This document shows positions 13,993 through 34,496 of a stretch of 35,268 nucleotides of DNA, in pieces. The DNA is from Candidatus Geothermincola primus (GTDB lineage Bacteria > Actinomycetota > Geothermincolia > Geothermincolales > Geothermincolaceae): the NCBI GenBank assembly GCA_015711725.1, contig JACVIX010000020.1:1-35268 (forward strand). The letters are read 5' to 3'. Numbering within the stretch: the first letter of the stretch is position 1; each line of letters starts with the position of its first letter. Under the pieces are notes generated by a model, which worked only from the letters and a program-made list of their open reading frames with translations, searched no databases and was not told the origin of the DNA. Made by a program: the position numbers and the translations under genes.

Positions 13993-14841
13993 ATGGGCAG
14001 ATCTCGCCGGCATGAGATGAGAAACTTTTTCATCTCCGTCTCCGCGCTAGTGGCAATCGTTATCGCCGCAGTGATCATTTACTCCATTTTAGATGGCGCA
14101 GCCACCATAAAAAGGGAGGCAGAAGACGAGAAGCAACGGGTGATTGGCCAGTTGGCGAATTACGTCATTGAATCTTTCAACGCCACCCAGAAGCTAGGCA
14201 CCGATCCCGAGGTAATGAAGACTTTGGACGTCAAATTAATAGAGGAAGCCACCAAAGGGAACTTCCAACCCCTTATGAATTTTACCGCTCAATTCCTGCG
14301 CAATCTCTATCATTTCGAGTACGTTGCTTTTGTGGTTGATGGTAAAGTTGTGGCTTTAAACACCAGAGAAGGGCTGGATATATCGAGCTTCGCTATCCCT
14401 ATTTCCATGCCGGATAGCCGCTACGAGGTCATTACCGAGTTAGGGGACGAGGATGGTTACTACGTTTCAATGTTTGCCGAGACGGTCACTCCCGGGCTGG
14501 GCAGGAACCAGTTCGCCAACTTCGTCCTGGACCGCACCGAGCAAATAAAAGGCCTCAACGACTTCTACTCCAGCGAGCGTTCTGGACTGATAAAAAGGGA
14601 GATCATCGGTGGTATAATTGGCGTGCTGGGAACCTTTATTCTCATACTTATCGCGGTTAGCTATCTGACGCGGCGTTTCATCACCAAGCCCATAGAGGAG
14701 ATCTCCAGAATTTCCCAACAGATTACCGAGGGCACCTTCGAAGGGGAAATCGTGGTGGACGTGGACAGCGACTATGCCGCTCTACAATCCCTGCTACAAA
14801 GCGGAAAGAAAATACTAGATAAGATGTTAGAAGCAGATTGA
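13993..14841 (+). CDS. Membrane sensor-like protein with HAMP end, no output domain (copy 1)
   Basis: 282 residues. A basic N-terminus leads to a first transmembrane helix (about 13-31), then an outer domain of about 150 residues whose AFVVDGKVVALNTREGL stretch resembles a single-Cache/PAS-like ligand domain. A second helix lies at about 205-225. A short HAMP-like segment follows, starting TRRFITKPIEEISRIS and ending QSLLQSGKKIL. The protein stops there, with no kinase, methyl-accepting or cyclase domain. The start has GGGAGGT upstream. The next gene is a paralogue 52 bases downstream, so the two are probably co-transcribed and may heterodimerise; that is inference. Confidence 0.78.
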   Translation: MGRSRRHEMRNFFISVSALVAIVIAAVIIYSILDGAATIKREAEDEKQRVIGQLANYVIESFNATQKLGTDPEVMKTLDVKLIEEATKGNFQPLMNFTAQFLRNLYHFEYVAFVVDGKVVALNTREGLDISSFAIPISMPDSRYEVITELGDEDGYYVSMFAETVTPGLGRNQFANFVLDRTEQIKGLNDFYSSERSGLIKREIIGGIIGVLGTFILILIAVSYLTRRFITKPIEEISRISQQITEGTFEGEIVVDVDSDYAALQSLLQSGKKILDKMLEAD

Positions 14842-14893: not shown

Positions 14894-15745
14894 ATGCGCA
14901 GGGGCAAAGCACATGAACTTAGAAAATTTCTCATCTGCACATCGGTCTTAGTGATAATACTATTAGTCATCGGGGTTATCTACAACATTTTAGAATCTAA
15001 AACGAGGTTGGACCGTGAGGAGAAAACGGAAAAGCAGCGGGTGGTGGATCAACTCTCCCGCTATGTGATGGACTCCTTCGCCGCCACCATGAAGGTAGGC
15101 GAGGAGCCGCAATCAATCCAAGGGCTAGACGTCCAATTTATATTAGAGGCAGGGAAGGGTAACTATGTTCCAGTGATGCAGTTCATATCCAAATTCTTCC
15201 GAGGCCTATATAACCTGGAATACGTTGCCTTCGTAAAAGATGGGGTGGTGATAGCGGAAAACACCAGGGAAGGACTGGCATTTCCCAGTGAAGATGTCCC
15301 TAAGAACTTCCCCCAACAGGATTATCAATTGCTCACCAGACTGGGTGATAGGAATGGCTACTTTATTTCCATGTGCGTGAAAACTCCTCTACCTGGACAG
15401 GAAAGCGAGCAATTCGCCAACCTCGTGCTGGATAGGACTCAGCAGATAGAGGAGATAGACTCCTATTACCAAGAAGAGAAAGACAAATCTTTTAACCGGC
15501 AGCTAGTCGTTGGAATAATAATAATCCTGATAGCGACAATGATCTCCACCCTAGGGGTCTTTCTGCTCAGCCGCTATTTCATCACCGGGCCCATACATGA
15601 AATCACCAGAATCTCTCATCAAATTATGGAGGGTACTTTCCAGGGAGAGATAAAGGTAAACCGGGAAAGTGATTTCGCTCAGTTGCAGGGGCTCCTCCAG
15701 AGCGGTAAATTGATCATGGGAAAGCTGGGCGAGATGGAAGAATAA
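14894..15745 (+). CDS. Membrane sensor-like protein with HAMP end, no output domain (copy 2)
   Basis: 283 residues and the same architecture as the preceding gene: a TM helix near 12-30, an outer domain with YVAFVKDGVVIAENTREGL, a second TM near 206-228, and a HAMP-like end with SRYFITGPIHEITRIS and SGKLIMGKLG. The two are alignable end to end with most conservation in the outer ligand-domain core and the HAMP. They therefore arose by tandem duplication and have since diverged. The start is supported by TTGGAGGG. Output may come from an unlinked partner. Confidence 0.78.
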   Translation: MRRGKAHELRKFLICTSVLVIILLVIGVIYNILESKTRLDREEKTEKQRVVDQLSRYVMDSFAATMKVGEEPQSIQGLDVQFILEAGKGNYVPVMQFISKFFRGLYNLEYVAFVKDGVVIAENTREGLAFPSEDVPKNFPQQDYQLLTRLGDRNGYFISMCVKTPLPGQESEQFANLVLDRTQQIEEIDSYYQEEKDKSFNRQLVVGIIIILIATMISTLGVFLLSRYFITGPIHEITRISHQIMEGTFQGEIKVNRESDFAQLQGLLQSGKLIMGKLGEMEE

Positions 15746-27863: not shown

Positions 27864-28274
27864 TTACCCCTCCTCCTCGAAGAGTGGGCGTTGGGTTCGA
27901 CGAGCCCAGCCGTAACAAAGCGCGATCACCTCATCTCCTTGGTCTTTCACCACCATGGTGTAGTGGCATACCCTTTTGCCCAGGACGTTCTCCTCGCAGG
28001 TGGCGGTTAGTATGGCGTCATTGTCGGGCGCCTTGAGAAAGTCGATGCTCACGTGCATGGCCATGGTGACTTTCTCCCTGGTGTTGGCGGCCGCCCCGAA
28101 GGCGGCGTCTGCCAAGGCGAAGATTGCTCCACCATGGACGGTCTTGAAAAAATTCTGGTGTTCCTCCTTGAGGCGCATGCGCACCTTGGCGTATCCCCTT
28201 CTCACCTCCAGGATCTCGATGCCCAGCAGGTCGCAGAAGCTATCCCGGGAGAAGAGCTCAAGGTACCTCCCCAT
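27864..28274 (-). CDS. PaaI-like hotdog-fold acyl-CoA thioesterase
   Basis: A 136-residue single hotdog domain with the PaaI signature: a basic EHQNFFKTVHGGAIFALADA stretch in which HGG, the following Asp of LADA and the N-terminal Asn are the usual active-site elements. It likely hydrolyses acyl-CoA esters. I start at 28274, where GGGGGAGGTGAG precedes the ATG. An alternative ATG at 28316 overlaps the stop of the mutase small subunit (ATGA) and would add 14 residues. Either way it is the last gene of the mutase operon. It may clear stray or dead-end CoA esters produced by the pathway. Confidence 0.87.
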   Translation of the reverse strand: MGRYLELFSRDSFCDLLGIEILEVRRGYAKVRMRLKEEHQNFFKTVHGGAIFALADAAFGAAANTREKVTMAMHVSIDFLKAPDNDAILTATCEENVLGKRVCHYTMVVKDQGDEVIALCYGWARRTQRPLFEEEG

Positions 28275-28312
28275 GCTCACCTCCCCCGGTATGGCTCCTC
28301 CCATATCCGCCC

Positions 28313-28723
28313 TCATTTCTTATGACTCCGGGAGGCCAGCTCCGAGTGGATAAACTCCACGATGGCGCTGGTGGGGGTGCCCGGACCGAATACTCCATCT
28401 ATCCCTATCTCTTTCAGAGGCTGGTGGTCCTCCTGAGGGAATACCCCGCCGATCAGGAGGAGAAAGTCATCCCTACATCCCTCCTTCTCCAAAGCCTCCA
28501 CCACCGCCCGGGCCCATTCTAGGTGGGCGCCGGAGTGCACTGAAAATCCGATCACGTCCACATCCTCCTGCAGGGCGGTCTCCACCATACCCTCCAGGTT
28601 CTTGAATCCGGCGAAAATGGTCTCCATCCCCGCCTCGGACAGCGCCTTGGATACCGTGATGATTCCCCTCCAGTGGCCGTCCAGCCCCGGTTTGAAGAGA
28701 AGCACCCTGATCTTGCGGTCCAT
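28313..28723 (-). CDS. B12-binding small subunit of acyl-CoA mutase
   Basis: 136 residues, a stand-alone cobalamin-binding domain as in two-gene isobutyryl-CoA or archaeal-type mutases. The base-off/His-on motif is DGHWRG (about residues 15-20, after KPGL), providing the lower-axial His. The other loops are VDVIGFSVHSGAH and GGVFPQEDHQPLKEIGIDGV, with FGPGT closing the nucleotide-tail pocket. In the usual SxL motif the Leu is replaced by His (SVHS). I start at 28723, seven bases after AGGGAGG. The large subunit ends 15 bases upstream, so the two are translated as a unit. Confidence 0.93.
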   Translation of the reverse strand: MDRKIRVLLFKPGLDGHWRGIITVSKALSEAGMETIFAGFKNLEGMVETALQEDVDVIGFSVHSGAHLEWARAVVEALEKEGCRDDFLLLIGGVFPQEDHQPLKEIGIDGVFGPGTPTSAIVEFIHSELASRSHKK

Positions 28724-28738
28724 GCTCACACCTCCCTT

Positions 28739-30412
28739 TTAAGCCACTATGGGCAGGTCCCAGAGGCCCCAGATCTCCCGGTATACGTCGGTGATCTCCC
28801 CCAGGGTAGCTCCCGCTGCGGTGAGCTGGCTCACCACCGGAAGCACGTTCTGGTTCTGCTCGCAGACCCGGCGCAACTCATCAAGAAGGGAGCGCACCCG
28901 GGCGTTGTCCCTCTCCCGGCGCAGCTTCTCTAGTCGTTCAAGCTCTATCTCCGCCGCCCGGGGGTTGATGCGGAAGGCGGGCGGGGGCTCCTCTTCCTCC
29001 TTGACGTAACAGTTCACCCCCACCACCTTCTCCGCCCCGGACTCCTGGTCGCGGCGGCGCTTATGAAAAGCCTCGGCCATCTGGCCGAAGAGCCATCCGC
29101 TGGAGAGCGCCTCGGCTACTCCTCCCGCCTCCTCTATCTTTAGGAAGTAGTCCCAGATGCGTTCCTCCAGCTCTTTGGTGAGCGCCTCCACGTAGTAGGA
29201 ACCCGCCAGGGGGTCGATCACGTTGGCCACCCCGGTCTCCTCCTGGAGTATCTCCTGGGTTCTCACCGCCAGGGTCACCGCCTCCTCGGAGGGCAGACAG
29301 ATGGCCTCGTCATAGGAGTTGGTGTGCAGGCTCTGGCATCCCCCTAGCACCGCCTCCAGGGCCTGGTAGGCGGTGCGGATGATGTTGAGCATGGGCTGCT
29401 GGGCGGTGAGCGAGGAGCCTGCGGTCTGCACATGGAAGCGGAACTGATAGGCTCGGGGGTTCTCCGGGCGATAGCGCTCCCGCAGCAGGCGGTACCAGAG
29501 CTTGCGGGCGGCCCGGTACTTGGCGATCTCCTCGAAGAAATCCCGATGGGCGGAGAGGTGGAAGGCCAAGCGATGGACGAAGTCGTCTATCTTCCAGCCC
29601 CGGGAGAGCAGCTCATCGATGTGGGCCACCGCGTTGGCCAGGCCCATGGCGATCTCCTGCACCGCGTCTATCCCCCCCTCCCGGTAGTTGTAGGTGGTGA
29701 AGTTCACCGGGTTCCAGCGGGGAGCCTCCTTCATGGGGATGCAGTACTCGATGAGGTCGCATGCCAGCTTGAGCATGTGCTGAGGATCAACCGCTCCCCA
29801 AGGTATTATGGCACAGCAAGTAGTGAGCAAGTCTCCCTGAGTGGTCCCTATAAGAGTTTCCTTGGCTATGCCTCTCTTGCGGGCCACGTTGAAATATGTG
29901 GTGGTGATGGCTGGTCCCGCCATGGGAGTGACCACCAATGCCACGCTTATGCGGTCGATGGGTAGCCCTTCCACCAACGCCTCCATCCCTCGGATGGAGT
30001 AGATGGGAACCCCCTCCTTACCCACCTCTGCTTCGATGCCTGGAAACATGTCGGGATCCAGGGCAAGAGTTGTTAGATTGTCCGCAGCGGCGGAAAACCC
30101 CGTCTCCCCCTCCTCATAGAGGAGTCTCCACCTCTGATTGGTCTCCTCAGGGGTGCCGAAGCCGGAGAACATACGGATGGTCCAGAATTTCCCTCGATAC
30201 ATATTGGGGTAAATACCTCGAGTGTAGGGAGGGAATCCAGGAAAGCCAATATCTTCCAAGTAATCCAGATCCTTTACGTCTAATGGCGTATATAGCTGAT
30301 TTATAGGAATTCCAGAGTCGGTTCGAAAGATCCCATCTCGCTCAGGCCATTGCTGGCTCTCCCCTTTCCATCTAGAGTATTCCTCCTCCAGTTTCTGATA
30401 GTTTTCTCTCAT
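28739..30412 (-). CDS. Divergent acyl-CoA mutase large subunit (methylmalonyl-CoA mutase family)
   Basis: 557 residues, a TIM-barrel radical mutase subunit without its own B12 domain. Family signatures are clear: TRGIYPNMYRGKFWTIR (64-80), GTTQGD with Gln192, AARKLW, QTAGSSLTAQQP, SLHTNSYDEA, and IDPLAGSYYVE. Positions that set chemistry differ from methylmalonyl-CoA mutase (P. shermanii numbering). Tyr89 is Phe82 (TIRMFSGF) and Arg207 falls on Ile202-Ile203 (TTCCAIIP). His244 is Asn242 (TTYNYREGG, aligned without gaps from RWN). Isobutyryl- and 2-hydroxyisobutyryl-CoA mutases have Gln at the 207 position and keep the His, so this is none of the classic types. The ribosome binding site is GAGGGGGG. 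It follows tetR by 80 bases. Substrate unknown. Confidence 0.92.
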   Translation of the reverse strand: MRENYQKLEEEYSRWKGESQQWPERDGIFRTDSGIPINQLYTPLDVKDLDYLEDIGFPGFPPYTRGIYPNMYRGKFWTIRMFSGFGTPEETNQRWRLLYEEGETGFSAAADNLTTLALDPDMFPGIEAEVGKEGVPIYSIRGMEALVEGLPIDRISVALVVTPMAGPAITTTYFNVARKRGIAKETLIGTTQGDLLTTCCAIIPWGAVDPQHMLKLACDLIEYCIPMKEAPRWNPVNFTTYNYREGGIDAVQEIAMGLANAVAHIDELLSRGWKIDDFVHRLAFHLSAHRDFFEEIAKYRAARKLWYRLLRERYRPENPRAYQFRFHVQTAGSSLTAQQPMLNIIRTAYQALEAVLGGCQSLHTNSYDEAICLPSEEAVTLAVRTQEILQEETGVANVIDPLAGSYYVEALTKELEERIWDYFLKIEEAGGVAEALSSGWLFGQMAEAFHKRRRDQESGAEKVVGVNCYVKEEEEPPPAFRINPRAAEIELERLEKLRRERDNARVRSLLDELRRVCEQNQNVLPVVSQLTAAGATLGEITDVYREIWGLWDLPIVA

Positions 30413-30492: not shown

Positions 30493-31068
30493 TCACTTCA
30501 GCAATCCCTTCATCAGTAAATCCATGGCCCCGGAGTACACCCTTTCCATGCTCAGGCGATTTTTCGCCAGAAAGTCCTGGTCGCAAAGGTAGTCCCCAAT
30601 ACCCTGGAAAAGACGAGTAAGCAAGGCAGGGTTAACATCCTCGCGGAATTCTCCCTTCTTCGCGCCTTCTTCCAGGATAATAGAGATATATTTGGTCAGC
30701 TGACGAAAGTAACCTTGAGAGAGCATGAAAAAGTCGGGGAATAGCTCTTCTAAATCTTTCATTAGGGAAGGATCCAGCTCAGAAAGATCCTTTACCAGAC
30801 ATTCGCTGGCAAGATATAACTTGTCCCGTGAGGATATCTCCATGGCGATTATCTCCTTGAATCGTTGGATTAACCTGCTTGCCCGTCTATTCAAAGCGGC
30901 AAAAAAGAGTTCTTCCTTGGAGGGAAAGTATTGGTAAATGGTTTTTTTGCTCATACGAAGCTTTCTGGATAGCCTATCTAGGTTGAAGCGTCGAAAACCC
31001 TGGCTGATAGCCATCTGTTCAGCTCCGTCAATCAATTTTTCCAATTGGGTGTTGAGGCCTTGTTTCAT
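30493..31068 (-). CDS. TetR/AcrR-family regulator of the mutase operon
   Basis: 191 residues. The helix-turn-helix is near the N-terminus (ISQGFRRFNLDRLSRKL, then SKKTIYQYFPSKEELF). The rest is an all-helical ligand domain typical of TetR proteins. The ATG at 31068 lacks a clear Shine-Dalgarno, but a later start would remove helix 1, so it is retained. A near-consensus promoter and a palindrome lie just upstream, which suggests autoregulation. Position, directly before the mutase genes and divergent from the CaiB/BaiF gene, makes it the probable local switch responding to an acyl-CoA or related ligand. Confidence 0.92.
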   Translation of the reverse strand: MKQGLNTQLEKLIDGAEQMAISQGFRRFNLDRLSRKLRMSKKTIYQYFPSKEELFFAALNRRASRLIQRFKEIIAMEISSRDKLYLASECLVKDLSELDPSLMKDLEELFPDFFMLSQGYFRQLTKYISIILEEGAKKGEFREDVNPALLTRLFQGIGDYLCDQDFLAKNRLSMERVYSGAMDLLMKGLLK

Positions 31069-33316: not shown

Positions 33317-33461
33317 TTCTCCTTCTGTTTTATAACGCATCTTCCATAATTAAATCAATTTAAGCACGCTTGATTGCGATAGGAAAGATCTCGCGACTTA
33401 TAAAAATATGATAATCTTATAATAAATATAATTTATGATTATATGTCATAGGGAGGGTAAC

Positions 33462-34496
33462 ATGGCGTTGAAGCTCACGCAGCTTTCTCGCGTCTCTGGG
33501 TGAGCTGCCAAGATGGGTCCGGAGGACCTGGCGAAAATTTTAAAAAACTTGCCTAGCCAGCAACGCGAGGAGATATTGGTAGGGCTGGAAACACCGGATG
33601 ACGCCGCGGTCTATCAACTGGACGAGCACACCGCCTTGGTGCATACGGTGGATTTCTTCACCCCTATTGTGGATGATCCATATACCTTTGGCCAGATAGC
33701 GGCTACTAATGCCTTGAGCGATATATATGCTATGGGAGGCAGGCCCCTCACCGCCATGAATATTCTATGTTATCCCTGCAAGCTAGGCACGGAAGTTGCT
33801 GTGGAGATACTTAAGGGCGGAAATGACAAGGTAAAAGAGGCGGGAGCCATGGTGGTGGGAGGGCATACAGTGGAAGATGAGGAACCAAAATTCGGGCTGG
33901 CTGTAACCGGTATCGTTGACCCTGGTCTTATCCTCATCGCAGGTGGCGCTCGTCCTGGGGATGTCCTTCTTTTAACCAAGCCTTTGGGAACTGGGGTTAT
34001 GGCTACCGCTCTGAAGGCCGAGTTCATTGGGGAAGATGAAATGGCGGAAACAATCAGGGGGATGACTACCCTTAACCGCGTAGCTTCCGAGTTGGCCTTG
34101 GAGTTGAAAGCATCCGCTTGCACTGACGTGACTGGCTTTGGACTATTGGGCCATTTACTCAATATGGTGAGCCATCACCTCACCTGTATTTTGAGAGTCA
34201 GTGATATCCCGTTTTACCCGGGCGTGCGGGAAATGGCAAGCCAGGGCATGCTTCCAGCGGGAGCTCGTAACAATCGACTTTATTATGAAAAAAACGTAAT
34301 CTATCCGGATGATCTGGACGCTCTCACTATCGATCTCTTATGGGATCCCCAGACCTCTGGTGGTCTGCTCATCGCGCTTCCGCCGGAAAGCGAGGAAAGA
34401 GCTTTAAAGTTCTTGAAAGCAAAAAATCCTTGTGGAGGTTATCTAATAGGTTACTTCACGGAAAGGCGCTCCGCTCCTATAGAGATTTCTATTTAG
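33462..34496 (+). CDS. selD: Selenide, water dikinase containing selenocysteine (in-frame UGA)
   Basis: 344 residues if the TGA at 33501-33503 is read as selenocysteine. The start ATG at 33462 follows GGGAGGG. The N-terminus reads MALKLTQLSRVSG-U-AAKMGPEDL, matching the SelD active-site motif in which Cys or Sec precedes AAK. An annotation from ATG 33513 would drop the catalytic residue. The enzyme makes selenophosphate from selenide and ATP. Downstream motifs fit: HTVDFFTPIVDDPYTFGQIA, ATNALSDIYAMGG, GGHTVEDEEP, DVTGFGLLGH and DPQTSGGLL. A bacterial SECIS-like hairpin follows the UGA. The next recognisable gene is selA. Confidence 0.95.
33507..33532 (+). promoter_or_regulatory. bSECIS element of selD
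   Basis: Directly after the UGA, GCCA (33507-33510) pairs with TGGC (33529-33532), and GGTCC (33516-33520) pairs with GGACC (33524-33528) around a GGA loop. The apical loop begins 17 bases after the UGA and starts with G. Both points fit the known constraints for SelB-bound bacterial SECIS hairpins. Confidence 0.75.

Follow-up and report, generated by a model that had tools for sequence, protein, structure and literature searches.

The mutase locus and its gene products

The window analyzed here, that is, the whole 35,268-nucleotide stretch of contig JACVIX010000020.1 from Candidatus Geothermincola primus, encodes on its reverse strand the large and the B12-binding small subunit of an acyl-CoA mutase, flanked by genes for a TetR-family regulator and a PaaI-type hotdog thioesterase, with a CoA-transferase gene reading divergently (Table 1). 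For the small subunit, the likeliest start is an ATG with GGAGG ahead of it. As a preliminary description of this DNA had stated, the family signatures are kept. The large subunit is a full-length Pfam match that also passes TIGR00641 (532 vs. a cut-off of 303.8), while the small subunit passes TIGR00640 (112.5 bits vs. a cut-off of 57.45) and has an intact DxHxxG motif in the form DGHWRG. An AF2 model of the large subunit built with 58 aligned relatives reached a pLDDT of 92 and a pTM of 0.93 (the pLDDT was 46 when eight sequences were used), and superposes on 2-hydroxyisobutyryl-CoA mutase (4r3u) with a TM-score of 0.95. The predicted fold is, with certainty, that of the barrel of AdoCbl-dependent acyl-CoA mutases.

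Table 1. Features of the mutase locus, listed by position in the window; residue positions in brackets follow methylmalonyl-CoA mutase (MCM) numbering
Feature	Position	Strand	Basis or remark
Family III CoA-transferase gene, divergent	start 31424		
TetR-family regulator, upstream of the mutase	30493-31068	(-)	PF00440
Acyl-CoA mutase large subunit (P0001, 557 aa), as printed	28739-30412	(-)	PF01642, 553.8 bits, full-length
Codons 1-213, N-terminal and pocket part	29774-30412	(-)	diverged (Ile207-type) paralog
Phe82 (MCM Tyr89)	30167-30169	(-)	alignment
Ala110 (position 117)	30083-30085	(-)	Phe in His244 enzymes, Val in the clade
Thr162 (position 168)	29927-29929	(-)	Asn in His244 enzymes, Glu in the clade
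Gly193 (position 198)	29834-29836	(-)	Asn in the clade
Ile202 (MCM Arg207)	29807-29809	(-)	alignment; Tyr in most of the clade
Codons 214-253, including Asn242	29654-29773	(-)	DNA identical to the end of contig C75
Asn242 (MCM His244)	29687-29689	(-)	alignment
His285 (position 287)	29558-29560	(-)	Phe in His244 enzymes; on model strand 283-288
Codons 389-431	29120-29248	(-)	one synonymous difference from the start of contig C170
Codons 432-557 and stop, C-terminal part	28739-29119	(-)	standard (Tyr207-type) paralog
B12-binding small subunit, DGHWRG and SVHSGAH	28313-28723	(-)	PF02310
PaaI-type hotdog thioesterase, overlapping the 3' end of the small-subunit gene	27864-28316	(-)	PF03061; TIGR02286 below cut-off

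The large subunit lacks the active-site histidine of characterized mutases

Residue positions were assigned by aligning the protein (MAFFT) with 2-hydroxyisobutyryl-CoA mutase and with the MCMs of human and P. shermanii, and are given hereafter in MCM numbering. The alignment confirms that the positions of Tyr89, Arg207, and His244 in MCM are occupied by Phe82, Ile202, and Asn242, the last of these being anchored by the motif Y-[HN]-x-x-E-x-G. The alignment around this site, which had been called gap-free, is so locally, but the clade to which the protein belongs carries a one-residue insertion between positions 207 and 244. Arg87, Gln197, Tyr243, His328, and Gln330 are all retained. The three substitutions are not equally informative. 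Phe at position 89, which had been listed as a notable loss, is ordinary, being present in 88 of 111 His244 enzymes. The classic enzymes keep His244, and those of the isobutyryl type have Gln207 rather than Arg207. Since the same Phe/Ile/Asn set occurs in a copy from an independent genus (L009, in genome G001), and since Phe89 and Asn244 are found in all 56 distinct members of the clade, these substitutions are not due to chance.

We assessed the pocket from the alignment together with the strand order of the AF2 model. In the model, residues 110, 162, 193, 242, and 285 lie within or directly after barrel strands, the ends of which form the active-site face in such barrels. This placement makes it possible that His285 (position 287) substitutes for His244, and the alternation of residues along its strand would turn this side chain toward the substrate. 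Hence, while His244 itself is indeed absent, the claim that the catalytic histidine is missing needs qualification because an invariant histidine at position 287 may supply the pocket with one.

A sharply bounded clade within a His244-less superclade

The clade is sharply bounded: searches recovered its members at 55-79% identity, and the next best sequences at 50% at most. Carriers number 19 of the 30 genomes in the window's own class and 57 of the 228 in the Asgard phylum, the latter with a single copy each. Two of the 247 Halobacteriota-type phylum genomes also carry it, one of them twice. No copy turned up in some 367 further genomes of the window's phylum, nor, at the thresholds used, in the desulfobacterial-phylum (247), Bathyarchaeota-phylum (300), or Chloroflexota-phylum (301) genomes. 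Its monophyly has an SH-aLRT support of 100, also when the six focal columns are left out, and 100/100 in another tree. The clade motif consists of Phe89, Val117, Glu168, Tyr207 (Phe or Cys in some members), Asn244, and His287. Phe89, Gln197, Tyr243, and Asn244 are found in 56/56 distinct rows, a pattern that the window fits, and position 207 is Tyr, Phe, Ile, or Cys. His287 is found in 55 rows, the remaining row having a gap, and Glu168 in 54. The clade is a real and conserved, though uncharacterized, variant within a well-known enzyme family, and both its extent and its age exceed what the preliminary description could see. We found no activity for it in the open literature, and know of no member with a measured activity.

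Two archaeal genomes deserve mention. The two copies in genome G1556 are sister to the bacterial copies (93/85), which suggests transfer of the clade from archaea to bacteria. These copies (L238 and L240) differ from one another at pocket sites 92, 117, 122, 172, and 207 (Tyr vs. Cys), so pocket divergence following duplication seems to recur. In G1500, of the Halobacteriota phylum, the clade mutase is the sole PF01642 gene and is located a few kilobases from the F430 gene cfbD (TIGR03282, 458.8 bits vs. a cut-off of 268.4). This F430 biosynthesis gene makes it probable that G1500 carries MCR. On the same contig (L245, 4364-6669 and 9393-11072), the PF01642 gene is near both cfbD and a CfbE-like gene.

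Absence of the histidine is shared by a whole, deep superclade and is no peculiarity of one gene. In a tree built without the focal columns, every sequence lacking His244 falls into a single group, which comprises the window's clade, further Asn244 sequences from Desulfobacterota, Methanolliviera, and Bacillus, and a pair of Gln244 sequences, of which one (L002) comes from the window's own genome. Other pocket sites change along with position 244. Among 111 distinct His244 rows, position 207 is always Gln, Arg, or Asn, while position 168 is Asn and position 287 is Phe in 109 rows each. Neither Asn168 nor Gln207 occurs in any of the 82 rows without His244. Because His244 was lost only once on the tree, this coupling between sites 244, 168, 207, and 287 is without independent replicates. 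The Asn244 sequences outside the clade (L039, L042, L045, and L059, from Desulfobacterota, Methanolliviera, and Bacillus) resemble the window protein in lacking Asn168 and Gln207, but they share at most 50% identity with it and have Cys, Ala, His, Ser, or Ile at position 168 and other residues at 207. To our knowledge, none has been characterized.

Several members of the superclade and its surroundings show further variation. The Gln244 gene in the window's genome (L002/L130, contig C180) has Ile89, Ala168, and Val207, and Gln244 is also found in L031, from the same class. Desulfobacterial-phylum genomes G705, G842, and G402 (L059, L170, L176, and L227) encode several very divergent mutase pockets. 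An initial look gave about 30 mutase candidates for some genomes of this phylum (29 and 31), and 14 PF01642 matches were counted in G402. L042, from Ca. Methanolliviera, holds three genes or gene fragments for mutase large subunits, accompanied by B12 subunits, adjoining what appear by eye to be proteins of the 2-hydroxyacyl-CoA dehydratase/benzoyl-CoA reductase type and their activator.

Relation to characterized mutases

The window protein falls outside the characterized clades included in the trees (MCM, 2-hydroxyisobutyryl-CoA mutase, and IcmF-like) and, less surely, apart from pivalyl-CoA mutase, and all these enzymes keep His244 in the alignment. It shares its fold, Gln197, Tyr243, and DxHxxG with MCM. 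However, the absence of Tyr89, Arg207, and His244 makes methylmalonyl-CoA an unlikely substrate. The Aquincola 2-hydroxyisobutyryl-CoA mutase (4r3u), which similarly has separate large and small subunits, is the best PDB sequence match of both window subunits, but it displays Ile89/Asp116/Asn168/Gln207/His244/Phe287 where the window has Phe/Ala/Thr/Ile/Asn/His. Isobutyryl-CoA mutase and IcmF, which act on apolar branched substrates, resemble the window protein in having Phe89 and no Arg207. In contrast, the IcmF-like L167 keeps Gln207, Asn168, and His244, all three of which the window lacks, and IcmF has a GTPase fused to it, whereas in the clade MeaB is separate or elsewhere. Against NF045497, the window large subunit scores 245 bits (cut-off 1500). 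Finally, pivalyl-CoA mutase of Xanthobacter, whose locus we take to be Xaut_5043/5044, has two subunits with a PaaI-type thioesterase and MeaB nearby, like enzymes of the window's kind, but it has Leu89 and Asn207, keeps His244, and is very distant on the tree. The tree puts its reference sequence, which has a long branch, outside the Asn244 group with a support of 99, but this placement is unsure. The proposal of a new substrate class is partly supported: the window protein is separate from the included characterized clades, its pocket is rebuilt, and the paralog has become more apolar, which makes a new substrate preference plausible, although no substrate can be assigned from sequence.

A diverged paralog under purifying selection

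Within the clade, the window gene represents a diverged paralog. Together with L009, an intact copy from a related genus, it shares 13 changes at sites that are near-invariant in the standard clade, 11 of which fall between residues 110 and 202. At positions 117, 168, 198, and 207, for example, Val, Glu, Asn, and Tyr have given way to Ala/Cys, Thr, Gly/Ser, and Ile. The standard Glu168, Tyr207, and Val117 are thus absent from both copies, which have Thr168, Ile207, and Ala or Cys117. In G001, the large- and small-subunit genes of this type are intact on one contig (L116, 1896-3566 and 1462-2022), and an example of a standard pair is found on L135 (9353-11035 and 11064-11483). Over codons 105-212, the dN/dS between the two genera is 0.16. 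The window-type gene is under purifying selection, and we dropped the reading as a pseudogene. The joint loss of two polar groups suggests that Glu168 and Tyr207 have a shared role in the standard enzyme, and that its diverged counterpart may bind a more apolar, perhaps bulkier, acyl group.

The printed gene is probably a chimera

A second clade copy in the window's genome is split over two contig ends. C75 carries residues 1-253 of the standard Tyr207 type, while C170 starts at residue 389 and continues into a small subunit and Hdr-like genes. Comparison with these contigs makes it probable that the organism itself has no such gene, and that an assembler fused the 5' half of the diverged paralog to the 3' half of the standard paralog, leaving the subunits mispaired. 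The DNA of the printed gene matches the broken ends of C75 and C170 over the two tracts listed in Table 1. The pS between the window and C75 is 0 over codons 214-253, as against 0.56-0.61 upstream (dS about 1). The two parts of the protein are placed oppositely on trees: for residues 15-212, the window groups with L009 at 100/99, whereas for residues 432-557 it is C170 that pairs with L009 (97/94), the window being outside this pair on a short branch. GC3 also divides the gene into two corresponding halves, with values of 0.45-0.78 over codons 1-213.

The neighboring genes add to this picture. The window TetR shares 67% identity with the TetR beside the G001 copy and at most 45% with those of standard operons, while the SDR on C75 is 73-80% identical to the SDRs of standard operons. 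In the small-subunit tree, C170 pairs with G001 (90/95), and the window small subunit resembles the standard ones. Its SVHS had been read as a departure from the SxL motif. However, S[VICM]HS is found in all standard clade loci checked with a readable motif, the window having SxHSGA in common with standard loci, and the small subunits of the two Halobacteriota-phylum genomes have S-I-H-S. SxH is thus the clade norm, and we dropped SVHS as a departure specific to this gene. The C170 small subunit, by contrast, has an ordinary SxL (SILSGSH) and is probably the true partner of the diverged paralog, the SVHS-containing subunit of the window being probably that of the standard one. The thioesterase, 42-48% identical to all its counterparts, gives no clear signal. 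A reciprocal crossover or gene conversion would leave the same picture, but we regard a real crossover in the organism as less likely than an assembler join. The junction is probably between about 29773 and 29120, within a near-identical tract. It does not affect residues 1-253, which hold every site named in the preliminary description. Because these residues are 5' of, or inside, the shared tract, they represent the diverged paralog. The chimera is compatible with any of the functional explanations weighed below. It does warn against assaying the printed large subunit with its printed small-subunit neighbor.

Genomic neighborhoods point to β-oxidation

Most standard bacterial operons run, in this order, from a TetR gene through genes for a thioesterase, an SDR, an acyl-CoA dehydrogenase, the mutase, and the B12 subunit to those for a thiolase and an OB-fold partner. 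Loci of another bacterial branch instead encode an acetyl-CoA acetyltransferase together with an acetoacetate-CoA ligase, the latter above cut-off. Among 15 bacterial clade loci, 15 have an SDR, 14 a thioesterase, 13 an acyl-CoA dehydrogenase, and 11 a thiolase. Asgard loci have the mutase, B12 subunit, and MeaB (16/21), often with an acyl-CoA dehydrogenase (10/21) and Etf subunits (in 8) on the opposite strand, and sometimes a CoA-transferase. These counts are raw, and acyl-CoA dehydrogenases are common in such genomes. The PDB entries nearest to the neighboring dehydrogenase are of the short-chain and butyryl types. As for the diverged gene of G001, it is located behind an acyl-CoA dehydrogenase-like gene, an SDR, and a TetR. 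This neighborhood suggests that the mutase either supplies β-oxidation with a saturated acyl-CoA or withdraws one from it, and hence that a saturated acyl-CoA is its probable product; the neighboring genes indicate a pathway, not a substrate. Since the window's genome also encodes an MCM-type mutase (C122) and a Phe89/Gln207/His244 isobutyryl-type mutase (C54), the clade enzyme likely uses a further substrate.

Proposed reaction and alternative explanations

On balance, we lean toward an AdoCbl-dependent two-subunit acyl-CoA mutase, of an uncharacterized His244-less superclade, that carries out the usual reaction of the family on a 2-methyl-branched saturated acyl-CoA. Judging from family knowledge and synteny, the 5'-deoxyadenosyl radical would abstract a hydrogen from the methyl group of this substrate, the CO-SCoA group would migrate, and the linear acyl-CoA released would be oxidized by the neighboring acyl-CoA dehydrogenase. 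Elsewhere in the family, His244 forms a hydrogen bond with the thioester carbonyl. Here, this bond may be provided by the conserved Gln197 with Asn244 and/or His287. The pocket of the standard enzyme would be shaped by Glu168 and Tyr207, while that of the window type, with Thr168, Ile207, and Ala117, would probably take a bulkier, wholly apolar acyl group. An invariant Glu168, mostly with Tyr207, is odd for a purely apolar substrate in standard enzymes.

A less probable explanation, which we nevertheless take seriously, is that the clade performs an ordinary isobutyryl/butyryl-type reaction, the novelty being confined to the active-site solution. The neighbors fit C4 β-oxidation (a short-chain-type dehydrogenase, an SDR, an acetyl-CoA acetyltransferase, and an acetoacetate-CoA ligase), G1500 has the clade gene as its only PF01642 gene, and syntrophs degrade isobutyrate via a mutase and β-oxidation (PMC5017805). 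However, a separate isobutyryl-type mutase (Phe89/Gln207/His244) is found alongside it in G1556, in the three Asgard genomes checked, and in the genome of the window, which would make an isobutyryl-acting clade enzyme redundant, and the presence of Glu168 and Tyr207 would be unaccounted for. An unlikely further alternative is that the standard enzyme uses these two residues to hold a polar acyl-CoA (for instance hydroxy- or aminoacyl) and that the window type lost them upon a change of substrate. It is consistent with this that Glu168 is lost, together with Tyr207, only in the two window-type rows, and that 2-hydroxyisobutyryl-CoA mutase also has an extra acid in its pocket, the Asp at position 116. 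Against it, the neighboring acyl-CoA dehydrogenase suggests a saturated acyl-CoA, and some archaeal members keep Glu168 with Phe or Cys at 207. That the mutase is inactive, a relic or a regulatory protein, is very improbable. A residue invariant among the characterized relatives compared is lost, but Asn244 is invariant across two domains of life, Arg87, Gln197, Tyr243, His328, and Gln330 remain, as does DxHxxG, selection is purifying, and the operon and the MeaB partner are conserved.

Implications for the enzyme family

It is possible, and we propose it only tentatively, that these sequences form a separate B12 mutase lineage in which an Asn244/His287 arrangement, with Glu168, replaces His244 and acts on a substrate new to the family. 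If true, this would link branched or subterminally activated chains to β-oxidation in Asgard archaea, where the clade is found in a quarter of the genomes searched, in MCR-bearing archaea, and in a single class of bacteria. The window-type paralog would then represent a second, more apolar specificity within the lineage. A His244-free lineage with coupled changes at 168, 207, and 287 is a natural test of the role of His244, and might be a source of new skeleton rearrangements. There is also a consequence for annotation. The window gene matches MCM models, so routine annotation would imply a propionate pathway, against which the residues argue. In Ca. Alkanophaga, mcm is reported as present while two of three propionyl-CoA genes are absent (PMC10322722), and this mcm is a case that deserves rechecking.

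Elsewhere in the window, two adjacent genes (13993-14841 and 14894-15745, forward strand) encode related membrane proteins that form a tandem duplication with an apparent extracytoplasmic sensor-like region. The window also encodes a selenide, water dikinase (SelD, 33450-34496, forward strand), which seems to be a selenoprotein: an in-frame TGA at 33501-33503, ahead of the ORF start at 33513, gives LTQLSRVSGUAAKMGPEDLA when read as U.
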